Part shown: piece by piece, positions 45,257 through 64,000 of the stretch
Layout of the letters: every line of letters begins with the position of its first letter
Position numbering within the stretch: position 1 is the stretch's first letter
NCBI GenBank assembly: GCA_027459325.1
Contig: DAIDIO010000001.1
Span: 1 to 64,000, forward strand
Length of the DNA: 64,000 bases
Source of the DNA: Candidatus Saccharimonadota bacterium
GTDB lineage: Bacteria > Patescibacteriota > Saccharimonadia > Saccharimonadales > UBA4665
Direction: 5' to 3'
The notes under the pieces: model-generated
What the model saw: the letters and a program-made list of their open reading frames with translations, nothing else
Databases searched by the model: none
Told to the model about the DNA's origin: nothing
Translations under genes and position numbers: made by a program

Positions 45257-45285
45257 TTGACTTTAAATAGTTATGTATATACAAT
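45257..45285 (+). promoter_or_regulatory. Promoter of first toxin-antitoxin module
   Basis: TTGACT (45257-45262), 17-base spacer, TACAAT (45280-45285), then 10 bases to the ATG at 45296. No ribosome-binding site, so the antitoxin is probably translated from a leaderless message. Confidence 0.75.
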
Positions 45286-45295
45286 AATAGATACT

Positions 45296-45550
45296 ATGAA
45301 CACATCTACTGCTACTGTAATTAAGACGGGGAACTCGTATGCCTTACGTGTGCCTAAGGCATATGCTGAACGGAATAACCTACGCCCTGGCGCCAAGGTG
45401 ATTCTTCCTGACCCGCAATCAGCGGGAGGAACACTTGCCGACCTTAACACTATAATCAAAGCTTCTCGCAATAAAAATAAAGTAACCGCCTGGGATAAGA
45501 TAGTTAACCCTTCGGAATGGCAGCGAACCGAGCGTGATAACTGGTCATGA
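45296..45550 (+). CDS. AbrB/MazE-type antitoxin
   Basis: 84 residues with a swapped-hairpin AbrB fold at the N terminus: ATVIKTGNSYALRVPKAYAE and LRPGAKVIL. The C-terminal half is charged and would wrap the toxin. It overlaps the PIN toxin by 4 bases (ATGA), the usual antitoxin-first, coupled layout. ATG at 45296 is chosen; an in-frame TTG at 45257 is the promoter -35. Confidence 0.8.
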   Translation: MNTSTATVIKTGNSYALRVPKAYAERNNLRPGAKVILPDPQSAGGTLADLNTIIKASRNKNKVTAWDKIVNPSEWQRTERDNWS

Positions 45551-45927
45551 AACAGGCAGTTATTGACACTAACGTTCTTATCTATTGGTATAAGGCTGGC
45601 TTTATTCCGTCTAATATGGACTTATCTACTATAGTTCCCGTGTACTCAATAGTTACTAAGATTGAAGCTCTCGGGTTTCAATACATCACCAATAGTGAAG
45701 TTAAGGCCATAAACGCCATGCTGGCTAGCGGAGAATTGGTTAGCATCAGCGATAGTATAGCCGACCAGACCATAAGCTTGCGTCAGAACTATAAAATCAA
45801 AACGCCTGACGCTATTATTGCCGCTACCGCTCTGGTCAATAATGCCGAGCTATGGACTGCTAATACCGCTGACTTCTCCAATATTAAAGGTCTAAAATTA
45901 TTTAACCCCTTGGCAGCTAGCAATTAA
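45547..45927 (+). CDS. PIN-domain (VapC-like) toxin
   Basis: 126-residue predicted ribonuclease. Acidic metal-binding residues: Asp in AVIDTNVLIYWY, a glutamate in KIEALGF, Asp in TPDAIIAATAL, Asp in WTANTADF. VapC toxins cleave tRNA or 23S rRNA; the target here is unknown. Inside the tRNA-Arg island, with its antitoxin immediately upstream. Confidence 0.85.
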   Translation: MKQAVIDTNVLIYWYKAGFIPSNMDLSTIVPVYSIVTKIEALGFQYITNSEVKAINAMLASGELVSISDSIADQTISLRQNYKIKTPDAIIAATALVNNAELWTANTADFSNIKGLKLFNPLAASN

Positions 45928-46203: not shown

Positions 46204-46204
46204 A
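46178..46204 (+). promoter_or_regulatory. Operator-promoter of second toxin-antitoxin module
   Basis: Perfect 8-base inverted repeat TACGTATA (46178-46185) and TATACGTA (46197-46204), the right arm touching the ATG. A TATAAT box (46182-46187) lies within the left arm. Such an arrangement suits autorepression by the antitoxin. Confidence 0.6.
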
Positions 46205-46446
46205 TGAAAACTAAACTTACCCTTAGTATAGATGAAGATTTAGCAAAGTTTGCCCACAAACAGGCTAGAGCTAATAGGAGTTCTGTTTCGGGTATGTTCT
46301 CTGAATATCTGCGACAGTATAAAATTCAATCAGACAAAGCAAATAATCCAAGTATTGCCAGTATGGTTGGGTCTCTTAAGCATTACTCAATTGATGATTC
46401 AAAAAAAGCTATAATGGCCATTTATGCAGAGAAGTATTCTCGTTGA
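46204..46446 (+). CDS. Antitoxin (DUF6364-like)
   Basis: 80 residues beginning KTKLTLSIDEDLAKFAHKQA, the ribbon-helix-helix-like pattern of DUF6364/RHH antitoxins (strand, then two helices with RSSVSGMFSEYL). The C terminus is a short toxin-binding tail. Its last 23 bases overlap the PIN toxin gene, and an inverted repeat overlaps its start. Confidence 0.75.
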   Translation: MKTKLTLSIDEDLAKFAHKQARANRSSVSGMFSEYLRQYKIQSDKANNPSIASMVGSLKHYSIDDSKKAIMAIYAEKYSR

Positions 46447-46825
46447 TTTAAACGTTATACTAGACGTGCTTTTAGAACGACCAGGCTATAAGGCTTCGCA
46501 AGCAATTTTAGAAAAGCATTCTAATGGATGCACGGTGTATATTAGTGGGCATATAGTGACAACTTTCGCCTACCTACTAGAACATGCTAAAGTGCCTAAA
46601 GAAGAAATAAGACGTAATATTAGCTGGTTGCTAAGTAAATTTACTGTTGTTGCTACATCCGATAATATTTTAAACAATGCGCTGAAAAGCAGTATAAGTG
46701 ATTACGAAGATGCCGTTATTGAGCAAGCTGCTCTGGCTTGCAAAGCATCAGCTATAGTCACTCGTAACATCAAAGACTTCGCTCAAAGTGCTGTGCCTGC
46801 ATTAACGCCTGAAAACTTTTTATAA
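46424..46825 (+). CDS. PIN-domain toxin
   Basis: 133 residues: ILVDLNVILDVLLERPGY (first Asp), YEDAVIEQAALAC (Glu/Asp), and IVTRNIKDF (C-terminal Asp). Paired with the overlapping RHH-like antitoxin. It is not closely similar in sequence to the first toxin, so the two modules are independent arrivals rather than a duplication. Confidence 0.85.
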   Translation: MQRSILVDLNVILDVLLERPGYKASQAILEKHSNGCTVYISGHIVTTFAYLLEHAKVPKEEIRRNISWLLSKFTVVATSDNILNNALKSSISDYEDAVIEQAALACKASAIVTRNIKDFAQSAVPALTPENFL

Positions 46826-46878: not shown

Positions 46879-47998
46879 TACTCAAATAGATCGTAGACAA
46901 TCCGTCTCGTAGAATAGTTGTTGTAAACACTAACTAAAATACGAGGAGGGTAAGACGTATCATGTCTAACCGTATTGGATCATCTACGATCTACAGATCA
47001 ATACTACCAAATAACCGGGCTTTGAATAGGCTTAATAATGTACAGTTAAGTAGGGATGCTAGATTCAGACTAACAGTTATTGAGCATTATCTATTTAAAA
47101 CCAAGAATGTCAGCTTAACCTGCAGACACTTTGCCATAACTCGGAGCTACTTCTACAAATGGTACAAAAGGTACAATCCCGGGTACCTTAAGTCCTTAGA
47201 AAGTATGAGCACTAGGCCTAAGCAAGTGCGTTCTGTTACCTATGATCTAGACTTCGTTAGACTAATTCGCAAGCTTAGAACAGACTATCCGAGCTATTCA
47301 TCTAAGAAGCTAGCCGTGGTAGTGAATAGAGATTACGGATACGACTACTCCTACGGCACCATAGGCAGGATAATCCAGAAGTTTAAACTTTACTTCTCTA
47401 AAGCCATTAGGCTACGTAAACGCCATGCCACAGCTAAAAGATTAGTTAGAATACGTAAGCCATACAACCTCAGGGCAGTAAAGCCACACAGCCTAATTGA
47501 GTTCGACATGAAGCATATATGGATGCCCGGAGCAGGCACCCGCTATGCCTTTGTAGCCGTAGATGTAGTAACTAAACAGGCTGTTATTCATGCCGGGGGA
47601 ACGCCTTCATCCGCCCAAGCTAAATTAGCCCTGGAAAAGGTTATATCCGCCTTTGGATCGGACATAGCTATCCTTAACGACAATGGCTCGGAGAACTTAG
47701 GTAAAGCCCAAGAGTTCTTAAAAGACCAAGACATAACTCAGTACTTCGCTAGACCAAGAACACCAAAGGATAAACCTCACGTGGAGAACCTAATTGGTAA
47801 GTTACAGCTAGAGTGCTTAGACGAAGATAGGTCAGCTAAAACTGTACCAGAACTACAGACCCAGATTAACCATTGGTTAAACGACTACCATTTCTTTAGA
47901 CCCCACCAAGCCTTAAAGTATCTGACTCCACAAGAATTCTGTGATACATTAAACATAACTATTCCACGGGCATAAAAGTGTCCACGATGTATTGAGTA
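46879..47998 (+). mobile_element. Insertion sequence, IS481-like, with terminal inverted repeats
   Basis: Left end TACTCAAATAGATCGTAGAC... (46879-46899) and right end, reversed, TACTCAATACATCGTGGACA (47998-47979) agree at about 17 of 20 positions with one indel. Between them lies a single transposase gene with only short flanks (about 60 and 4 bases). About 1120 bp. I see no clear target-site duplication. Both ends and the gene are intact, so it may be active. Confidence 0.75.
46962..47975 (+). CDS. IS481-like DDE transposase
   Basis: 337 residues. N-terminal HTH (about 40-80: NVSLTCRHFAITRSYFYKWY) and HTH/linker, then a retroviral integrase-type core with catalytic triad Asp182 (EFDMKHIW), Asp240 (LNDNGSEN) and Glu275 (HVENLIGK). 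The C terminus has the usual YHFFRPHQALKYLTPQEF. A strong GAGGAGGG site precedes the ATG. IS481/IS3-group rve-type enzymes cut and paste by strand transfer. Confidence 0.9.
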   Translation: MSNRIGSSTIYRSILPNNRALNRLNNVQLSRDARFRLTVIEHYLFKTKNVSLTCRHFAITRSYFYKWYKRYNPGYLKSLESMSTRPKQVRSVTYDLDFVRLIRKLRTDYPSYSSKKLAVVVNRDYGYDYSYGTIGRIIQKFKLYFSKAIRLRKRHATAKRLVRIRKPYNLRAVKPHSLIEFDMKHIWMPGAGTRYAFVAVDVVTKQAVIHAGGTPSSAQAKLALEKVISAFGSDIAILNDNGSENLGKAQEFLKDQDITQYFARPRTPKDKPHVENLIGKLQLECLDEDRSAKTVPELQTQINHWLNDYHFFRPHQALKYLTPQEFCDTLNITIPRA

Positions 47999-53865: not shown

Positions 53866-53974
53866 GTTATCAACACAAAAACGCAAGTTTTTATCTATGA
53901 ACCCTTACGTAAAAAGGGTAAACGGATCTAACTCGAAGAACAATTATAGAAATCAATTTTGGAGGGTAACAAAA

Positions 53975-54457
53975 ATGGCGCGAAGAAATCGTGATGACGA
54001 TTTACTATTAGAAGAAGATGAGCTGACCGCTGCCTTCTTAGGTGACGACACATCAGCAGGACCTGAACAACCAATGCAGCAAGCCGCTGCACCAAGCGTA
54101 GAAGACGATTGGGACGAAGAGGACAATGTTGTTCCTGGACAACTGGCGGTAGATGTTTATGAAACAAGAGAGAAATTAGTTGTTAAGGCTAGAACTGCCG
54201 GTGTCAACAAAAGCGATTTAGATGTAAGTATTTCAGATAATCAATTAACTATTAGAGGCACTCTTAGCTCTGGTAGTGAAGAAGATGTAGAAAACTACTT
54301 CTTACAAGAATGCTATTGGGGCGAATTCTCTCGCAGCATTGCCCTGCCTGTAGCGGTTAAAGAAGAAGAGATTGAAGCCGTACTAAAAGACGGTGTATTA
54401 ACAATCACCTTTGCTAAAGCTCAACAGGATTCTATTAAGAAGATTCAGGTTCTCTAA
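53975..54457 (+). CDS. Hsp20/alpha-crystallin small heat shock protein
   Basis: 160 residues from ATG 53975, which has GGAGGG 8 bases upstream; an in-frame TTG/ATG at 53897 would add 26 poor residues. Residues 1-55 are acidic and disordered (DDDLLLEEDELTAAFLGD); 57-155 are the alpha-crystallin domain (LAVDVYETREKLVVKARTAG, GVLTITFAK). Holdase that keeps unfolded proteins soluble. Convergent with the pilin operon across a shared terminator. Confidence 0.9.
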   Translation: MARRNRDDDLLLEEDELTAAFLGDDTSAGPEQPMQQAAAPSVEDDWDEEDNVVPGQLAVDVYETREKLVVKARTAGVNKSDLDVSISDNQLTIRGTLSSGSEEDVENYFLQECYWGEFSRSIALPVAVKEEEIEAVLKDGVLTITFAKAQQDSIKKIQVL

Positions 54458-54527: not shown

Positions 54528-54974
54528 CTAAGAAGAGACTGCGCTGGTTGACTGATTAAGTACGAAGTGTACTATAGCCTGAGCCAAAGCTACGATTATT
54601 AGACCAATGATAGCGTAAATAAGGGTGTTTTTAGCACCGCCAACTTTATCACTCGCACCACCTGAGGTAACGTATCGGAAACCGCCGATGATTATCATGA
54701 TAACAGCAACGATTCCAACAATTATAGACAGGATGTTAATAACTTTTCTAGCTATAGCAGTCAAGGTTGAGCCGGCTGCTGTACCGTTACCGGTACAAGA
54801 TCCGCCTGTTGCTCCCATAATGCCGCTACAGAGCCCGGATTTTATATTAGAGCCTGCGGTATTAGATAAACTTTCAGCGCTTACTGTTCCGACTAGTGCG
54901 GGAGCTAGTCCCGGGGAAGCAATAATCATACCGGTTATGCCTACCATAATAAATTTTCTAATTTTTTGTAACAT
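54528..54974 (-). CDS. VirB2/TrbC-like two-helix subunit, sixth gene
   Basis: 148 residues from ATG 54974; 20 extra residues upstream are in frame but come before AGAAAGG. A signal-like N terminus ending SAESL, then two helices around GGFRYVTSGGASDKVGGAK and a hydrophobic second helix (TLIYAIIGLIIVALAQAIV). The arrangement is that of VirB2/TrbC pilins of type IV secretion systems. Last of six tandem genes and the most similar to the fifth. Confidence 0.75.
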   Translation of the reverse strand: MLQKIRKFIMVGITGMIIASPGLAPALVGTVSAESLSNTAGSNIKSGLCSGIMGATGGSCTGNGTAAGSTLTAIARKVINILSIIVGIVAVIMIIIGGFRYVTSGGASDKVGGAKNTLIYAIIGLIIVALAQAIVHFVLNQSTSAVSS

Positions 54975-55030
54975 TTCTTTTACCTTTCTTATTGATTTAA
55001 TTAACTTATACCATAAAGATTCATCTGTTT

Positions 55031-55477
55031 TCAAGATTTCTTGGGTACTGACTCGACTGAAGTATTAATAACAAAATGAATTATTGCCTGCGCCAGGGCA
55101 ACCACAATTAGACCAATAAGCGCATAGATTAGTGCGGTCTTAGCGGCGGCTACTTTTTGACTATCTCCACCCGAAGTGACAAACCTCAGACCACTAATTA
55201 TTATCATGACTACGGTGACGATTCCAACTATATAGGTCAGAATGTTAATAATTGTTGAAATCAGATTATTGACAGTAGTGGAACTTGAAGAACCACAGGT
55301 TTCACCTGAGTTAAGTCCCTTTAGTGTTGCGCAAGCCGCTTTGCTTCCCGAGCTAGCAAAATAACTTGGCGTGAAGCTAAGGGCGCTCGCTGAAACTGGG
55401 GCTAGCAATAGACTCATAGTCAAGAACAGGCTGGTTATTATTTTGTTTATTTTTCTGGTTGCTACGTTGATTTTCAT
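55031..55477 (-). CDS. VirB2/TrbC-like two-helix subunit, fifth gene
   Basis: 148 residues; N-terminal signal segment (SLFLTMSLLLAPVSASA), two helices around GLRFVTSGGDSQKVAAAK and LIYALIGLIVVALAQAII. Close to the sixth (54528) in the helix-loop-helix part, so a recent duplication. Two pairs of cysteines in the outer part (CATLKGL, CGSSSS) could form disulfides. Confidence 0.75.
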   Translation of the reverse strand: MKINVATRKINKIITSLFLTMSLLLAPVSASALSFTPSYFASSGSKAACATLKGLNSGETCGSSSSTTVNNLISTIINILTYIVGIVTVVMIIISGLRFVTSGGDSQKVAAAKTALIYALIGLIVVALAQAIIHFVINTSVESVPKKS

Positions 55478-55492
55478 AACATATTCCTATTA

Positions 55493-55882
55493 CTAGTTAA
55501 CTTTATTTAGAACAAATACTACTATTGCCTGTGACAAAATTAAAATTGCTACGCCTATCATGGCGTTTATCAGGGTGCCCTTTGCTGATGTGACCTTTTG
55601 GCTGTCACCCCCTGATGAAGCAAATTTTATACCGCTCACAACGATCAAGATTACCGCAGCTATTCCAGCTACCCAAGAAATAACCCGTATTACAACTTTT
55701 ATTATATTTATGACCGGATTAGTCGTTGCTCCTGACTTAACATCAGGACAAATAGAGTTTGGTTGATTTTTCAAAGTTGTATTACATATCGGAACAATGC
55801 CATCGGCACCGACCACTCCATTTATTTGTATGGGTAAAAGCAGGCTGAGGCCTAAAAATAAACTAAATAATAGTTTTTTCAT
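55493..55882 (-). CDS. VirB2/TrbC-like two-helix subunit, fourth gene
   Basis: 129 residues: signal peptide (KKLLFSLFLGLSLLLP), mature segment with two cysteines, helices around GIKFASSGGDSQKVTSAK and TLINAMIGVAILILSQAIV. Ten or so bases separate it from the fifth gene; it overlaps the third by one base. Confidence 0.75.
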   Translation of the reverse strand: MKKLLFSLFLGLSLLLPIQINGVVGADGIVPICNTTLKNQPNSICPDVKSGATTNPVINIIKVVIRVISWVAGIAAVILIVVSGIKFASSGGDSQKVTSAKGTLINAMIGVAILILSQAIVVFVLNKVN

Positions 55883-56187
55883 TATGTACTACCGTTCAGA
55901 TTATTAAGCACTAATGCAACTAAAGCCTCGGCTGTTATGGATATCAAAAGCCCGACAACAGCATAAATTACAGTTTCTTTTCCTCTACTAGCTTTTTGTG
56001 GATCACCGTCTGAAAGTATATATCTTAAGGCGCCTATGGCTATAAACAGGATTGAGATGGCGGCAATTATACCTATTACAATGTTTAGTATGCTAGAAAG
56101 TTTTGGCGTTGTTGCACCAACCTTTGGTAAATGATCCGGGTATCCAAGGACAGCTGCAGTTTTTGTAAACTTTAAAAGATTTTCCAT
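55882..56187 (-). CDS. VirB2/TrbC-like two-helix subunit, third gene
   Basis: 101 residues without a clear signal peptide. Two helices around ALRYILSDGDPQKASRGK and TVIYAVVGLLISITAEALV. The loop motif is looser (S-x-G present, first G changed). No gap to the second gene (starts at the base after its stop). Confidence 0.7.
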   Translation of the reverse strand: MENLLKFTKTAAVLGYPDHLPKVGATTPKLSSILNIVIGIIAAISILFIAIGALRYILSDGDPQKASRGKETVIYAVVGLLISITAEALVALVLNNLNGST

Positions 56188-56547
56188 TTATAAACTCGTT
56201 GCCATAAAACCTACTAATAATGATGCGGAGACTGAAATAAGTAAACCTACAAGCGCGTTTATTATTGTGCTACGCGCCTTTGCGGTTTGCTCTGGTGATC
56301 CCTGGCTGGTGGTATAGCTGACGCCACCGATTATTACAAACACAACAGCTGCCAAAGTGGCTACCCGAAGAAGTATCTCGATAATAGCGGCGACTATAAG
56401 CCAGATGTCGGATATGCTTGTTAGCGCCGGAGAGCAAGCCCCTTTTATAGATGTCTTTGGCAAGAACTCATACCAGGTCGGGAGAATAGTAAATATCGAG
56501 GGGCCTGGACAGCCTTGCGTTGAAGAAAAGAATTGTAGTAACCACAT
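56188..56547 (-). CDS. VirB2/TrbC-like two-helix subunit, second gene
   Basis: 119 residues, no signal peptide; an outer N-terminal part with two cysteines, then helices around GGVSYTTSQGSPEQTAKAR and TIINALVGLLISVSASLLV. Start overlaps the stop of the first gene by one base (TAATG), so the six genes are translationally linked from here. Confidence 0.7.
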   Translation of the reverse strand: MWLLQFFSSTQGCPGPSIFTILPTWYEFLPKTSIKGACSPALTSISDIWLIVAAIIEILLRVATLAAVVFVIIGGVSYTTSQGSPEQTAKARSTIINALVGLLISVSASLLVGFMATSL

Positions 56548-56960
56548 TACTTAAGTACCGCCCCTGGAACTACATAATTAAGTATGGCGTAGGCAAAAAA
56601 GAATAGCAGTAGCGCCGTTACATTACCTTGAACTCTTTTCATGGCTTTTGCTGTTGCCTGAGGATCCCCTCTTGACGATGTAAATTGAATACCCGCAACA
56701 ATTAAAGACGCTATGATGACCAATCCGACACCATCGGATAACCATTTAATGATCGCAAAAAGCAGGTCCATAATTGGGTTGCCTTTGCCTATACAACCCA
56801 AATCAATACTAACCTGCACTGGATGATACGGAGCTCCCCCACAAGCCTGTGCAGCATAAACCCTGCCGGGCCCGAGGGCAAGAAAACTAAAGAACATAAC
56901 AAAAATTGAAGTTATAAATCTATATGTGACTAGTTTTAATTTATATGTTTTAAAAGACAT
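56547..56960 (-). CDS. VirB2/TrbC-like two-helix subunit, first gene
   Basis: 137 residues from ATG 56960: signal peptide (TSIFVMFFSFLALGP, cut near VYAA), then a first helix, the loop AGIQFTSSRGDPQATAKAM and a second hydrophobic helix (GNVTALLLFFFAYAILNYV). A TTG-initiated longer form (56972) would lie inside the promoter. Most divergent of the six. First gene of the operon. Confidence 0.7.
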   Translation of the reverse strand: MSFKTYKLKLVTYRFITSIFVMFFSFLALGPGRVYAAQACGGAPYHPVQVSIDLGCIGKGNPIMDLLFAIIKWLSDGVGLVIIASLIVAGIQFTSSRGDPQATAKAMKRVQGNVTALLLFFFAYAILNYVVPGAVLK

Positions 56961-56971
56961 CTGCAAAAACA

Positions 56972-57000
56972 ACTATACTATCTGAATGGGGTAGATACAA
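56972..57000 (-). promoter_or_regulatory. Promoter of the VirB2-like operon
   Basis: Minus-strand TTGTAT (57000-56995), 17-base spacer, TATAGT (56977-56972), 11 bases before the ATG at 56960. It predicts a leaderless message for the pilin genes. The 181-base divergent region to the VirB6-like gene holds separate promoters; on the plus strand TATTATAG near 57121-57128 may serve the other side. Confidence 0.7.
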
Positions 57001-57153: not shown

Positions 57154-60123
57154 ATGAAAAGACTCAGTTCTAGGCGCTTTATTAGAAAAGTTATCCCATT
57201 TTTTGGTGTCTCAATAATCTTACTTAACATAACCGCGGGCTTAAACCTAACTCAAAAAGTGCTTCCTTCTTTAGCCTCAGCCGCAGGCTGCAACAGTATT
57301 AGCGCTCCAGGGCCAGGAATAAGATTAAGTATATGTTTGGTTGACCCTTCAGGAAATTTACTTAGTGACCCCTCTAACTATAACGTAACAGTAACTCAAA
57401 CATACGCCCCTGGTCATACAGCAACCTACACAACTACCTACTATCAGGGCACATATGTAACCCAGCCGATGACACACGGACTGGGCACACAGAGTCAAAC
57501 CTGTACAGGTCCAAGCGCTGAACTTTATCAACTGGAAATCTATGCAAAAAAGAATGGTGATACATACAAGAACGCATACAATGCCTGTAATGATCAGTCT
57601 CGGAGTACAACTTATTTAGCAAACGTAACAGTGACCCCTGGTAAACAACCTCAGTATGGTTCGATTTCAGGATGTATAACATATACGGCTCAAGATGGGA
57701 CGACACAGAAGTTTAATGGTTCAAGCAATATAACAAACCCTGCGTCCGCTACTTTAGTTGGGCCTAATGGCTCGGCAACATCAACCCCCGTAACCATAAA
57801 CTCCGATGGTTGTTTAACGGTAAATAATTTACCCGTCGGACAGTACACTCTACGTGCACAATACTCGCCCGACGGTGCTAACGGTCAACTTTTAACAGAA
57901 AATTATCAGGATGTTTTTACAGTAACCGCCGGCAAAACCACACAAATTGGAGGACAGGCATCCACTAAAGAGAGTAGCCCCATCACGACCGGGCAAACAA
58001 ACAATCAAACAAGTTCATCAGACCCGACGCCGTCGTGCGCCAGCGGCTTTTCGCTATCTTGGCTTTTTTGTAGTGTTATTTCTGGTGCAGCGAAATTTGT
58101 TCAAAACGCTTACTTAAACATCATTAATCCGATCTTGGACCAACCTCAATCAAGCGTAATACTTGATACAAGCAAACCTTACTATTCTGTTTGGGCAAAT
58201 TTTCGTATATTCGGCGATGTATTCCTTATTATTGCATTGCTAGTGGTAGTCTTTGGCGAATCAATAGGTGGTGGGTTAATCGATGCATATAGTGCAAAGA
58301 AGATATTGCCTAGGCTATTAACCGCAGCCGTGCTTATTAACCTCTCTATATATTTGATTGCTATAGCCCTAGACGTAACAAGTGTTTTTGGGCATGGCAT
58401 CTACAGCTTACTGGTCTGGCCGTTTGATAAAAGTTTACACGGCTTTACTCTTCACCTATCTTTAACCGGCAATTTACTTACCGCATTAGCTGCCGGAGCG
58501 GGGGCTATCTGGGTATCGGTTGCCGGTGGAGGTTTTCTCCATTTTCTTTTTGTAACAGTGCTAGGTGGAGCTGTACTTATTCTTTTCGCAACTATGACAA
58601 CCTTAATTTTACGAATAGCACTCATCTTGGGGCTGCTGTTTGTAGCGCCAGTAGCCTTTGCTCTATATTGTTTACCCAACACTGAGAAATATTTTAGAAA
58701 ATGGTGGGATTTATTATCGCGGGCACTGTTAGTTTATCCTCTGGTTGGAGCTATTTTTGCATTAGCAAATATCACATCTTGGACTCTGGGTAATCTACCG
58801 CTTACTGGTCTTGCTAAAGGGTTTGGTGATGTTTTTGCTCTTATAGGTCTTTTTGTGCCCCTTATACTTGTACCTTTTGTGTTTAAGCTAGCTGGAGGGG
58901 CTATTGGCACACTTCATGATGGGATCGGGGGGAGAATGCACCAAGGTGGAATGCGAGGAATATCTGCAATTCGCAATCAACGACGTCAGTCTATTCATCA
59001 ACAGCGCATGAGTGGTGAAATGTCTAAGGGTAGATTCGGAGATGCGTATCGAAGGGTACATACCGGCTTAACTGTTCCTCATAGTGGTGCTTTTACATCA
59101 AACGCGCAATACAGATCTACCAAAGAAAGACTTCTTGCGGCGCAGCGAGATGAACTTCTAAAGAGACCGGGTGTCAATGAAGCACTTATGGATGATAATG
59201 TTCGTGGGGTTCTTGCTGTAGGAGAAGACAAAGCAAGAGACTTTTTGGTACAAAAGAACGTAAAGACAAAAGAGGAGCAAGATGTTGTCATAGCTGCTGC
59301 AAGATCGGTAGGTTTTTCTCCAACAGCCAGGCTTGCTGCACTACAGGGCGAATCAACACACGGTAAGGGACGAAACATGGCCGCAATTTCTACAGTATAC
59401 GGTAGTCCTGGTGATGCAAACAAAGGGTTAGATTCACTCATTAAAGATATTCAGACAACAAATGGTCTTGACGATACAGGCGTTCGAAGGCTGAAAGACC
59501 AAACAGAATACAACTTCCGTACCAATGGCGGGCGAGGTGATCTTGGACAAGACTCGGTATCTGATTTTGTTGATAAAAAATTCGATGGACAAACCATATC
59601 TACTATTACGGATGCCGGTATGGCTGTGGTGGGTAATGAATGGAAACAAAGAATCACCAGTACCGATCCTGTTAAGAGACAGCAGGTTGCCGCACAACTA
59701 CTTGCTACCACTGAAACTATGAGCAGAATGCTAGAACCCACAAGGGTAGAGTTTGTTAAACAAATGAAGTCAATGGGAGTAGACTTCGAATCAAGCGAAC
59801 CCGTTGATGTGCAACTTGCTAAGATGGCTTCAGGTCCTTCTGTTGCTACGTCTTACAATGCTACTATTGGTGCGGTTAGACAAGCACAAAGCGGAGTTCG
59901 TGCCGCTCAACAAGCCATTGACACCGCTGTAGCTGAGCACGGTACCGGAAGTCCCGAAGCTCAGGCACAGGTTGCCGCACTTTCTGCCGCACAGGCAAGC
60001 TTAGCCGCAGCGCAAAAAGCACATGCGCCATACGAAGAGATTATTGGCCGGGCAACCAGAGAAATACGCGGCACTTCCAGTACTTACAGCCAAAGCGTAC
60101 CTATGGCTGAAAGGACAGTATAG
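57154..60123 (+). CDS. VirB6/TrbL-like membrane protein with extracellular and cytoplasmic domains
   Basis: 989 residues. A signal/anchor helix (about 10-35) is followed by an outside region of about 230 residues built of strand-rich repeats with four cysteines (two Ig/CarboxypepD-reg-like domains, from NVTVTQTYAPGHTATYTT and a GSISGCITYTAQDGTTQKF segment), a linker, then about six helices (about 350-600: LIIALLVVVFGESIGGGLID, LFVTVLGGAVLILFATMTTL, LLFVAPVAFALYCLP) typical of VirB6/TrbL channel proteins. The last 380 residues are hydrophilic, helical, Arg/Gln/Ala-rich. The design is unlike classical VirB6; the outer part may face a host cell. Confidence 0.75.
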   Translation: MKRLSSRRFIRKVIPFFGVSIILLNITAGLNLTQKVLPSLASAAGCNSISAPGPGIRLSICLVDPSGNLLSDPSNYNVTVTQTYAPGHTATYTTTYYQGTYVTQPMTHGLGTQSQTCTGPSAELYQLEIYAKKNGDTYKNAYNACNDQSRSTTYLANVTVTPGKQPQYGSISGCITYTAQDGTTQKFNGSSNITNPASATLVGPNGSATSTPVTINSDGCLTVNNLPVGQYTLRAQYSPDGANGQLLTENYQDVFTVTAGKTTQIGGQASTKESSPITTGQTNNQTSSSDPTPSCASGFSLSWLFCSVISGAAKFVQNAYLNIINPILDQPQSSVILDTSKPYYSVWANFRIFGDVFLIIALLVVVFGESIGGGLIDAYSAKKILPRLLTAAVLINLSIYLIAIALDVTSVFGHGIYSLLVWPFDKSLHGFTLHLSLTGNLLTALAAGAGAIWVSVAGGGFLHFLFVTVLGGAVLILFATMTTLILRIALILGLLFVAPVAFALYCLPNTEKYFRKWWDLLSRALLVYPLVGAIFALANITSWTLGNLPLTGLAKGFGDVFALIGLFVPLILVPFVFKLAGGAIGTLHDGIGGRMHQGGMRGISAIRNQRRQSIHQQRMSGEMSKGRFGDAYRRVHTGLTVPHSGAFTSNAQYRSTKERLLAAQRDELLKRPGVNEALMDDNVRGVLAVGEDKARDFLVQKNVKTKEEQDVVIAAARSVGFSPTARLAALQGESTHGKGRNMAAISTVYGSPGDANKGLDSLIKDIQTTNGLDDTGVRRLKDQTEYNFRTNGGRGDLGQDSVSDFVDKKFDGQTISTITDAGMAVVGNEWKQRITSTDPVKRQQVAAQLLATTETMSRMLEPTRVEFVKQMKSMGVDFESSEPVDVQLAKMASGPSVATSYNATIGAVRQAQSGVRAAQQAIDTAVAEHGTGSPEAQAQVAALSAAQASLAAAQKAHAPYEEIIGRATREIRGTSSTYSQSVPMAERTV

Positions 60124-60176: not shown

Positions 60177-61235
60177 ATGGCAACATACAAAGTTATCCAG
60201 GACATTGAGGCTGAGGATCATATACTAGGTCCTTTAACCCTTCGGCAGTTTATATTTGCATTAATTGCCGTATTCTTTTTTTACTTATCGTTTATATTTT
60301 ATGCTAAAGGTGTAATCTTCTTAGACGTCATATCGTTACCGCCAGCTCTTTTCTTTGGATTTTTTGCAGTTCCGTTCGGCAGAGATCAACCCACTGAAGT
60401 TTGGGCATTAGCTAAAATACGTTACTTTTTAAAACCACGGAAACGAATTTGGGATCAGAGCGGCATAAAAGAGCTGGTAACGATTACTGTTCCTAAACGA
60501 ATTGAACATCAACTTACCGATGGGTTAACCCAGTATGAAGTCCAGAGCCGGTTAAAAGCCTTAGCCAGTACCCTAGACACCAGAGGCTGGTCGGTTAAGA
60601 ATAGTTTGATTCCACAGATCATAACACCTAGTGCAAATGGCGATTCCGATAGATTAATCGCGGTTAACCCGTTTGTTGGGGGAAATGATGTTGGCGCAGA
60701 TGAAACAGACGTGATGGACGAAGAAAACAGTCAGGTTGCTCAGCAATTTGCTCATATGATAGACGAGTCAGCCAGGGTACGACATCAGCAACTAGTCTCA
60801 CAAATGTCAGCGACAACAACCCTACCCGCACAGCCATCGCTAGACAATAACCAGTGGTTTATGCCTAGTGAACCCATAAGTTCCAATGATTCTAGTGGTT
60901 TTGCTCCTCAGCCGGTTTATGCTCCTGACGTAGAGGCTGGTCAGGAAACCTCTGAAGAGTCGGCTATAGTTTCTAAAATAAAAGAAACTCAACAAGCCCA
61001 AAAACTAGAATCAAACAATTTAAGAACGTTGCAGCCAATTAGCAAACAACCCCGACAACCAATGGTTACACACGTGCCGTCCCAGCCACCTACGCCAATG
61101 ACACAACCCGCAGATCCTGCTATACTATCTTTAGCAAACAGTGACGATTTGTCTATTCAAGCAATTGCCCATGAAGCCAAACGGACCAAGGGCGATGCAA
61201 CAGACAAGGATGAGGTCGTCATTTCGCTGCATTAA
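60177..61235 (+). CDS. PrgI/VirB3-like protein with long C-terminal extension
   Basis: 352 residues. Residues 1-110 are the PrgI family: YKVIQDIEAEDHILGPLTLR, two helices (about 26-45, 48-67), PFGRDQPTEVWALAKIRYFL. The rest is disordered, Gln/Ser/Pro-rich and acidic at places. PrgI is a small inner-membrane component in Gram-positive type IV systems, functionally like VirB3. TATAAT (60160-60165) ends 11 bases before the ATG, so it may be expressed separately from the VirB6-like gene. Confidence 0.85.
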   Translation: MATYKVIQDIEAEDHILGPLTLRQFIFALIAVFFFYLSFIFYAKGVIFLDVISLPPALFFGFFAVPFGRDQPTEVWALAKIRYFLKPRKRIWDQSGIKELVTITVPKRIEHQLTDGLTQYEVQSRLKALASTLDTRGWSVKNSLIPQIITPSANGDSDRLIAVNPFVGGNDVGADETDVMDEENSQVAQQFAHMIDESARVRHQQLVSQMSATTTLPAQPSLDNNQWFMPSEPISSNDSSGFAPQPVYAPDVEAGQETSEESAIVSKIKETQQAQKLESNNLRTLQPISKQPRQPMVTHVPSQPPTPMTQPADPAILSLANSDDLSIQAIAHEAKRTKGDATDKDEVVISLH

Positions 61236-61273: not shown

Positions 61274-62116
61274 ATGAATCCTCAAACAAACAACGTTAGA
61301 CCTGGTTCGACTATTGCCCCGCCGCATACAGTTGTACCTGTTCCCCCCGTTCCAACCAATGCTAATGGTGTAAAAGCACCAATTAGCAATCCGAATAGCA
61401 CCCAGAACACACTGCAAATAGCGGAAATTCGCGATGGTCTTGTCATAATGAACGACGGCTCCTTCAGGTCAGTTGTTATGGTAAACAGTATTAACTTTGA
61501 CTTAATGAGCGGACAAGAACAGGAAGCGGTGGAATATAGCTATCAAGGGTTTTTAAATTCTTTATATTTTCCAATTCAAATCTTCGAAAGATCACAAAAA
61601 ATAGACCTCCAACCTTATATAAATAAACTGGATAAGATTAGGGCTGAGCATGACAATATGCTACTGGCAATGCTGATGGAAGACTATATAGAATACATGT
61701 TCAACCTAAGCCAGCAAACAAATATTATGGATAAAAAGTTTTATGTAGTTATTCCTTATTTTCCGGTTATCGATTCAGCCAACAAAGCCGTTGAGCAAAG
61801 TAAAAACTTCCTGACGGGATTTGTGAGTCTTTTCAATAAAACCGAACAGCACGTCACGATTAATGAGGCGGAGCTGGAGAATGCTAAGACGGAACTCCGC
61901 AACAGAGTTCAGGCGGTACTTAGTGGTCTTTTACAATGTGGTATCAAGGGATTACCACTAGATACACAGGAACTTATTGAGCTTTACTACGATACATATA
62001 ACCCCGATACTGCCACCCGCCAACAACTTAAGAATTTTGATAACTTAACGGCCGACGTGATTACAAAGGGTACAGGCATGGCACCCCAGGCTCATTTGCA
62101 AAGGGAGCTACAGTAG
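61274..62116 (+). CDS. TraC-type N-terminal domain protein
   Basis: 280 residues. After a Pro-rich start, residues about 40-280 match the N-terminal part of TraC/VirB4-type conjugation ATPases (IAEIRDGLVIMNDGSFRSVV, FPIQIFERSQKIDLQPYINK, KKFYVVIPYFPVI) without a P-loop. It is followed 1 base later by a second ATPase gene with the motor, so the classic VirB4 protein appears split or duplicated here. Confidence 0.75.
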   Translation: MNPQTNNVRPGSTIAPPHTVVPVPPVPTNANGVKAPISNPNSTQNTLQIAEIRDGLVIMNDGSFRSVVMVNSINFDLMSGQEQEAVEYSYQGFLNSLYFPIQIFERSQKIDLQPYINKLDKIRAEHDNMLLAMLMEDYIEYMFNLSQQTNIMDKKFYVVIPYFPVIDSANKAVEQSKNFLTGFVSLFNKTEQHVTINEAELENAKTELRNRVQAVLSGLLQCGIKGLPLDTQELIELYYDTYNPDTATRQQLKNFDNLTADVITKGTGMAPQAHLQRELQ

Positions 62117-62117
62117 C

Positions 62118-64000
62118 ATGTTGGGGTTAGGAAATAAGTCTAACAACTCAACGTCAAATGATCCAGTGGCTATAGCTCAGGCTCAGAGGGCTAGGGAAGA
62201 AGTAGAAGTTCAGTCCGCCTTTCAAAAAGGAATAACCGCCCTTAGAGACTTCATCGCACCAAGCTCATTAGAATTCAGTAGCACTCATTTTCAAATTGGC
62301 ACTCGGTATGCGAGAACTTACTATGTCTACGGTTATCCAAGACAGGTCTATACGGGTTGGCTAAGTGGCATGGTCAACCTGGATGAGGTCATGGACATGA
62401 GCATTTACATATATCCTGTTGAAAGTCAGGTGGTTCTAGAAAACCTCCGTAAGAAAGTAACTCAGCTAGAAGCGGGTATACAAATTGATAGCGAAAAAGG
62501 TCGAGTCCGGGATCCTGGCAAACAGGCGGCTATTCTTGATGCAGAAGAGATGCGGGACAAATTACAGGTGGGCGAAGAGCGCTTCTTTAGATTTGGGCTT
62601 TATTTCACTATTTACGGAAGCAGCATGGAAGAGTTGGAGTTTATAAGCCATAAGGTTGAGTCAATGCTTGGTCAGCAACTAGTTTACAGCAAGCCAGCCA
62701 CTTCTCAGCAGGAACAAGGATTTAACAGCACGGTTCCTCAGCTAGTGGATCAGTTGCAAATAAGGCGCAATGTCAGTACCGGAGCCCTTAGCACTAGTTT
62801 TCCTTTCACTAGCGCTGATCTCACCCAAGATAACGGCATCCTATACGGTATCAATATGCACAATTCTGGTTTAGTAATATTCGACCGTTTTTCTTTGGAA
62901 AACAGCAACTCAGTAGTATTTGCAAAATCAGGCGCTGGTAAAAGCTTCTTGGTTAAGCTTGAAGCTTTAAGAAGTATGATGTTTGGCACAGAGATATTTA
63001 TTATTGACCCGGAAAATGAATACCAAAAAATGTGTGATGCGGCCGGTGGAGCATATGTCAGATTAAGCCTTAACTCTAATACCAGGATTAATCCTTTTGA
63101 TTTACCCCGGGTAGTTGATAGCGAAGAAGCCGATAACGCGCTTAGGTCTAACTTAATAACCCTTCATGGGTTGTTAAGACTGATGATGGGTGGAGCTCAG
63201 GCTCAAATACAGGGCGGAAACCAATACGTCATGCCGGCGCTAGCGCCCTCTGAGGAAGCCGATCTCGATGCGGCCTTGATTAATACCTATGCCAAGGCTG
63301 GAATCACTAATGATCCGCTAACTCACACTGCTGAACCGCCAACAATAACCGACCTTTACGATACCTTGCTACATATGGGAGGTACAGGGCCTCAGTTAGC
63401 TCAAAGGTTAAGAAAGTACACTTCGGGAACTTTTGCTGGCATATTCAGTCAACCAAGTAATATAGACATTAACAATCCTTTAGTTGTATTTAATGTTCGT
63501 GACCTTGAAGACGAACTCAGGCCCGTTGCTATGTATATTGTCTTAAACTATATATGGAATAAGACTAAAACGGATCAGAAGAGACGATTACTGATTGTTG
63601 ACGAGGCTTGGCAATTAATGAAGTATGAGGACTCGGCAAACTTCCTATTTTCTCTCGCTAAACGGGCGAGAAAATATAATTTGGGCATAACAACCATATC
63701 TCAAGATGTCGAAGACTTCATGGGAAGCAGAATGGGTAGGGCAATTGTAGCAAACGCCTCAATGCAGTTCCTTTTAAAGCAGTCGACTTCAGCGGTCGAT
63801 GTCCTCTCAGATGTATTTAAATTGACCAATGAGGAGAAGAAAAGGCTTAGTCAGTTTCCGGTTGGTCAAGGATTATTTTTTGCCGGTCAAAATCATGTCC
63901 ATATACAGATAATTGCCAGCCCCACCGAAACCAGCCTAATTACCACTAACCACCTAGAGACGGAAGACTCCCCTATAGCGGCCGGTAGCTTCAATCAACC
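62118..64000 (+). CDS. VirB4/TraC-type secretion ATPase (partial, runs off the window)
   Basis: At least 627 codons, open at the right edge. Walker A is AKSGAGKS at residues 269-276 and Walker B LLIVDEAWQLM (Asp495-Glu496); further VirB4 motifs are EIFIIDPENEYQKM, INPFDLPR, and ITTISQDVEDFM. It provides energy for pilus assembly or substrate export. The first 230 residues carry a TraC-like domain with YPVESQ and RFFRFGLYFTIYG. It starts one base after the upstream gene. Confidence 0.92.
   Translation, partial: MLGLGNKSNNSTSNDPVAIAQAQRAREEVEVQSAFQKGITALRDFIAPSSLEFSSTHFQIGTRYARTYYVYGYPRQVYTGWLSGMVNLDEVMDMSIYIYPVESQVVLENLRKKVTQLEAGIQIDSEKGRVRDPGKQAAILDAEEMRDKLQVGEERFFRFGLYFTIYGSSMEELEFISHKVESMLGQQLVYSKPATSQQEQGFNSTVPQLVDQLQIRRNVSTGALSTSFPFTSADLTQDNGILYGINMHNSGLVIFDRFSLENSNSVVFAKSGAGKSFLVKLEALRSMMFGTEIFIIDPENEYQKMCDAAGGAYVRLSLNSNTRINPFDLPRVVDSEEADNALRSNLITLHGLLRLMMGGAQAQIQGGNQYVMPALAPSEEADLDAALINTYAKAGITNDPLTHTAEPPTITDLYDTLLHMGGTGPQLAQRLRKYTSGTFAGIFSQPSNIDINNPLVVFNVRDLEDELRPVAMYIVLNYIWNKTKTDQKRRLLIVDEAWQLMKYEDSANFLFSLAKRARKYNLGITTISQDVEDFMGSRMGRAIVANASMQFLLKQSTSAVDVLSDVFKLTNEEKKRLSQFPVGQGLFFAGQNHVHIQIIASPTETSLITTNHLETEDSPIAAGSFNQ

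Follow-up and report, generated by a model that had tools for sequence, protein, structure and literature searches.

Six VirB2-like pilin genes that follow one another in the window (the whole 64,000-nucleotide stretch of Candidatus Saccharimonadota DNA analysed here) very probably represent six orthologous slots, the sequence of which is fixed throughout the family and in parts of the taxonomic order. The locus would be the pilin set of a chromosomal, host-interaction T4SS of a Saccharibacterium. In the reading that we prefer, with a probability of about 0.6, the products of these genes form one heteromeric assembly on VirB6/VirB4, with slots 1–4 as fixed specialised subunits and slot 6 as the major one.

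A tandem array of T4SS pilins

Six ORFs of 101–148 aa succeed each other on the minus strand (54528-56972; Table 1). The slots are numbered in the order of transcription, so that slot 1 is the sixth gene in the numbering of the original prediction and slot 3 is p4. For slot 6, the most likely start is the ATG at 54974 rather than an upstream TTG.

Table 1. Features of the pilin array and the adjacent T4SS genes in the window.
Feature	Coordinates	Strand	Evidence or remark
Slot 1 pilin-like protein, 141 aa	56547..56972	-	PF18895 27.4 bits; slot-1 clade SH-aLRT 99
Slot 2 pilin-like protein, 119 aa	56188..56547	-	PF18895 33.8 bits; slot-2 clade SH-aLRT 95
Slot 3 pilin-like protein, 101 aa	55882..56187	-	PF18895 40.0 bits; slot-3 clade SH-aLRT 96
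Slot 4 pilin-like protein, 129 aa	55493..55882	-	PF18895 34.6 bits
Slot 5 pilin-like protein, 148 aa	55031..55477	-	PF18895 53.5 bits
Candidate internal sigma-70 promoter of slot 6	55005..55034	-	conserved TGNTATAA and -35
Slot 6 pilin-like protein, 148 aa from ATG at 54974	54528..54974	-	PF18895 52.8 bits
VirB6-like polytopic membrane protein, 989 aa, divergent from slot 1	57154..60123	+	conserved divergent homologue
PrgI/VirB3-family protein	60177..61235	+	PF12666 40 bits, above cut-off
TrsD-like protein (related to VirB4 N-terminus)	61274..62116	+	NF041427 E=3.7e-7, under cut-off
VirB4-like ATPase	62118..64000	+	PF19044 93.8 bits; continues 58 bases beyond window end

All six proteins exceed the gathering cut-off of the Pfam family T4SS_pilin (PF18895; 26.6 bits), with scores between 27.4 and 53.5 bits. 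The TrbC/VirB2 family PF04956, the cut-off of which (27.9 bits) is not reached by the window copies (23.7 bits at best), matches 29 of the 35 slot-6 orthologues at E<1e-3. The proposal that the six paralogues are VirB2-like is borne out by these two families, and the kinship with VirB2 is supported at the level of Pfam. Among 14 control genomes, the archaeon Haloferax volcanii is the sole case with a PF18895 match above its cut-off.

A profile built from other genomes only, with the window left out, scores the six proteins at 77–109 bits, compared to at most 11 bits for 1000 full shuffles of each protein and at most 30 bits for shuffles that keep the hydrophobic pattern. The latter control rules out chance likeness among small membrane proteins, contrary to the outcome (a loop pattern no better than chance) that would have refuted the original prediction. 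The motif itself required amendment: [GA]xx[YF]xxSxGx(7)[AG] fits all six sequences, whereas the version first written fits only three.

The AF2 model of slot 6 consists of two long helices (66-102 and 107-146; pLDDT ~80 there, pTM 0.44), and a Foldseek search with this modest model yielded no match under E=0.001. Compared with solved VirB2 structures, the array profile retrieved no VirB2, and hhalign against R388 TrwL, with a single sequence on the TrwL side, gave a probability of 0.2%, equal to that of an unrelated membrane protein control. Given the N-terminal signal and the positive loop residues, the simplest topology would place the N-terminus outside, the loop in the cytoplasm and the C-terminus outside. 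All six subunits would then share a two-helix hairpin with a polar cytoplasmic loop.

Six slots in a fixed order

The pilin domain is present in 53 of the 59 genomes of the family, and the array regions from 40 of these yielded 35 complete six-gene arrays, including that in the window. When slots were assigned from the 72-residue core alone, leaving out each genome in turn, the position was correct for 205 of the 210 domains (97.6%; 35 arrays), compared to 16% with shuffled order. A second sample comprised 54 further non-duplicate named loci, among them 26 six-gene and 15 seven-gene arrays; these loci were found via slot-6 patterns, which biases the sample toward arrays with good slot-6 copies. 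The position was correct for 144 of the 156 domains in the 26 six-gene arrays of this sample (92.3%), and in half of the errors a slot 5 domain was taken for slot 6. Order is thus conserved across related genomes, the check that the original prediction had named.

In a tree built from 120 cores, single clades are formed by slot 1, by slot 2 and by slot 3 (SH-aLRT 99, 95 and 96, respectively), and slots 4–6 jointly form another one. The slot label changes 12 times on this tree, compared to 77.7 times in shuffles. Loci from other families of the order and, in one case, from another order (L052, L053, L059, L064, L067) give the same slot reading or nearly so. Outside the class, we found arrays of 4–10 pilins with no mapping onto the six slots. 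Beyond the family, arrays often include proteins with tandem pilin domains; several loci from other orders or classes (L066, L072, L073, L082, L085, L087) carry two to four such domains per protein.

In a few genomes, neighbouring slots are fused. Slots 1 and 2 share one open frame in four loci (L012, L023, L158, L169), and slots 2 and 3 in two (L030, L031), that is, in only 6 of the ~90 loci examined. Such fusions suggest that neighbours work together: an uncut chain would imply that both partners are present at once, sharing the outside N-terminus and C-terminus, which argues for joint assembly and against alternative subunits.

The single assembly slot filled by alternative subunits, as put forward in the original prediction, is at odds with these findings, given that every position corresponds to a separate orthologous family, in a fixed order, and that neighbours are sometimes fused. 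Slots 1–4 are best read as single-copy specialised subunits. The stacked subunits that the original prediction also offered are a possible arrangement, close to our preferred reading.

Variable outer parts

The pattern originally described for the window, an inner architecture that is conserved and outer parts that vary, extends to the other genomes, where the N-terminal parts are 17–28% identical, compared to 38–63% for the cores. The described differences among the N-terminal halves in length, signal peptide and cysteines are confirmed. Slot 1 is the most variable, with an N-terminal length of 2–348 residues and 0–21 cysteines; the window copy has a signal-peptide-like N-terminus and two cysteines. 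Slots 2, 4, 5 and 6 almost always contain at least two cysteines. In the window, slot 2 carries a P-x-W-Y motif within a two-cysteine segment, and slots 4 and 5 each combine a signal peptide with a cysteine pair. Slot 3, the shortest, usually lacks both cysteines and a signal-like segment, and its window copy, also the shortest of the six, has no cysteine and no evident signal peptide. Judging from these cysteines, the outer parts may be held by disulfides.

Slot 6 as the candidate major pilin

The genes for slots 1–4 overlap or are a few bases apart, and slot 5 follows slot 4 after 9 nt. The gap between slots 5 and 6 is longer (median 75 nt, quartiles 66–84) and contains TGNTATAA in 33 of 61 cases, with 28 gaps lacking it, compared to 0–2 of ~60 before each other slot and 2.3 expected from shuffles. 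A TTG-type -35 lies 17–18 nt before this element in 34 of 36 segments, one of which (L027) may fall outside the slot 5-6 gap. The resulting consensus, TTG[AC]AA-18-TGTGnTATAA, precedes slot 6 in roughly every second array and is very rare ahead of other slots. In the window, the -35 TTGAAA (55034-55029), which overlaps the slot 5 stop codon, is separated by 18 nt from the extended -10 TGG-TATAAG (55013-55005); a stricter promoter scan did not list this element. No consistent RNA fold was found in 12 examples of the gap, the common feature of which is the promoter-like element. The element is accordingly a candidate promoter that slot 6 would have of its own.

Slot 6 is also the most conserved slot, with 63% core identity across genomes, and its N-terminal length is the least variable of the six. 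In all 15 seven-gene arrays of the second sample, the surplus copy lies at the slot 5/6 end. High conservation, duplication at this end and the promoter-like element together make slot 6 the likeliest candidate for the major pilin.

Genomic surroundings

The array is linked to T4SS core genes, with PrgI and VirB4 identified by Pfam in the divergent operon and a conserved VirB6-like neighbour. The VirB6-like protein itself does not match a Pfam VirB6 family; its homologue lies divergently beside slot 1 in 48 of the 54 arrays with enough flank, at a median distance of 134.5 nt. Past the window end come a 1087-aa protein, a phage-tail-lysozyme-domain protein, dnaN and dnaA, the last two read from sequence. 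The first two of these, directly after VirB4 (L010:4107-8638), show a weak Peptidase_M23 match (1087 aa) and a Phage_lysozyme2 match of 99.7 bits (434 aa), and are candidate wall-cutting parts of the T4SS.

The genome comprises 823 kb in 27 contigs, and its nearest named relatives are almost all Saccharibacteria assemblies. On the other side, a small heat-shock gene (HSP20-like, by eye; 53897-54457) adjoins the array, convergent with slot 6. Further away, two neighbouring gene pairs (45257-45927 and 46204-46825) each resemble an antitoxin with a PIN-type toxin (VapBC-like, by eye), and a 337-aa integrase-type transposase-like ORF adjoins them (46962-47975). A second, smaller T4SS lies across dnaA, outside the window (L010:14213-16816 and L091:31-1031; contig C11, ~74.2-79.0 kb). 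It includes a single pilin (PF04956 30.0 bits, above the cut-off), PrgI, a TrsD-like protein, a VirB4-like fragment and a CHAP-like protein.

A proposed heteromeric assembly and its alternatives

We propose that the six distinct, non-interchangeable subunits are produced from one operon and probably assembled jointly on a VirB6/VirB4 base. Slot 1, whose outer domain is the largest and varies most, would be the likeliest tip or partner-contact subunit, and slot 6 would most likely provide the major subunit, be it of a pilus or of an envelope-spanning conduit. A more specific version is tentative: in a VirB2-type pilus or conduit made of different pilins that are ordered and in register, slot 1 would serve as the tip, since VirB5 is missing, and slot 6 would form the shaft.

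It is rather doubtful that the six proteins never form an extracellular pilus and instead belong to a membrane channel or envelope conduit, where the hairpins would be stacked as rings or would form a collar over VirB6. The monoderm envelope leaves a short path to span, and pili are absent from monoderm conjugation systems according to the available text of two reports (PMC12102498, PMC10633639). Furthermore, the second T4SS encodes a 394-aa protein in which a pilin domain is fused to a TrbL/VirB6-like part, so that a hairpin of this kind can serve as a fixed component in the membrane. Full-length homologues of this fusion are present in at least 7 other genomes of the family, and the top Foldseek hits of its model by probability are R388 TrwI/VirB6 (0.84, 0.69; E ~0.7-1.2), a likeness that is only suggestive. 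The conservation of slot 6, its occasional duplication and its promoter-like element point in the other direction, suggesting that one subunit is required in excess, as in a polymer.

A scheme in which the paralogues take turns in a single slot, for different hosts or to evade recognition, appears improbable. One-slot alternation or antigenic variation has been proposed for VirB2 arrays in Bartonella and in Anaplasma, and the available text of PMC12102498 suggests it for Patescibacteria. Such a scheme could account for outer parts that diverge much faster than the cores, for copy number that varies at slot 5/6, and for the greater similarity of slots 5 and 6 within one genome (59% identity) than between genomes (52%); being close, these two slots could be partly interchangeable. 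However, interchangeable copies, as in an antigenic-variation array, would lack position-specific orthology, whereas assignment here is position-specific at 97.6% and 92.3%. Copy-specific orthology and fixed order in dozens of species, single-copy slots 1–4 and fusions of neighbours are all unexpected under alternation, and the fixed slots speak against an interpretation of the array in terms of antigenic variation.

There is only a very remote chance that slot 6 is produced at another stage of the epibiotic cycle than slots 1–5 and that the two sets act independently: the long gap and the promoter-like element are found only ahead of slot 6, but transcription of slots 1–5 still runs in the direction of slot 6, no conserved terminator was noted, and gene order and neighbourhood are kept.

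The preferred reading, one heteromeric assembly with fixed slots in which the major subunit would be slot 6, makes specific, testable predictions on the T4SS of Saccharibacteria.

Comparison with known systems

Pilin arrays as such are already known, as far as the available text of the published reports goes. In S. epibionticum, a series of predicted T4SS pilins is essential (Wang et al., PMC10633639), and six pilins are reported, the same count as here; strain ML1 of this species is open to genetic manipulation (PMC10633639). Quinonero-Coronel et al. (PMC12102498) describe 441 VirB2 arrays of 2–11 genes in 383 assemblies and suggest versatility toward hosts. The arrays of S. epibionticum ML1 and N. 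lyticus TM7x (PMC10633639, PMC12102498, PMC12857230) resemble the present one in belonging to the same Pfam family, in being tandem and in lying near dnaA. In contrast to the fixed slots found here, the copies in published Patescibacteria arrays are treated as variable, and host adaptation or antigenic variation is suggested. The available text of PMC10633639, PMC12102498 and PMC12857230 contains no mention of fixed slots, fusions, a slot-6 promoter or expansion limited to slot 5/6.

Further afield, the Mbov_0395-family conjugal transfer protein of mycoplasma ICEs (NF045849) is the best NCBIfam model for all six proteins (E from 3e-9 to 9e-5), and all remain under its cut-off of 40 bits (36.4 bits at best). 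Type IV pili and type II secretion systems combine one abundant pilin with several distinct low-copy subunits; the fold and assembly machinery are unrelated to those of VirB2-like pilins, so that this is an analogy only. The VirB2/TrbC pilins of diderms, such as R388 TrwL, are two-helix hairpins, the fold also predicted for the present proteins, and are likewise encoded with VirB3, VirB4 and VirB6; many orthologues of the proteins described here show similarity to PF04956. In diderms, however, one VirB2 normally makes the pilus and VirB5 the tip, whereas here there are six distinct putative hairpin subunits. Known T4SS pili are built from one VirB2 pilin; the ordered heteromeric structure tentatively suggested here would be built from several different two-helix pilins.
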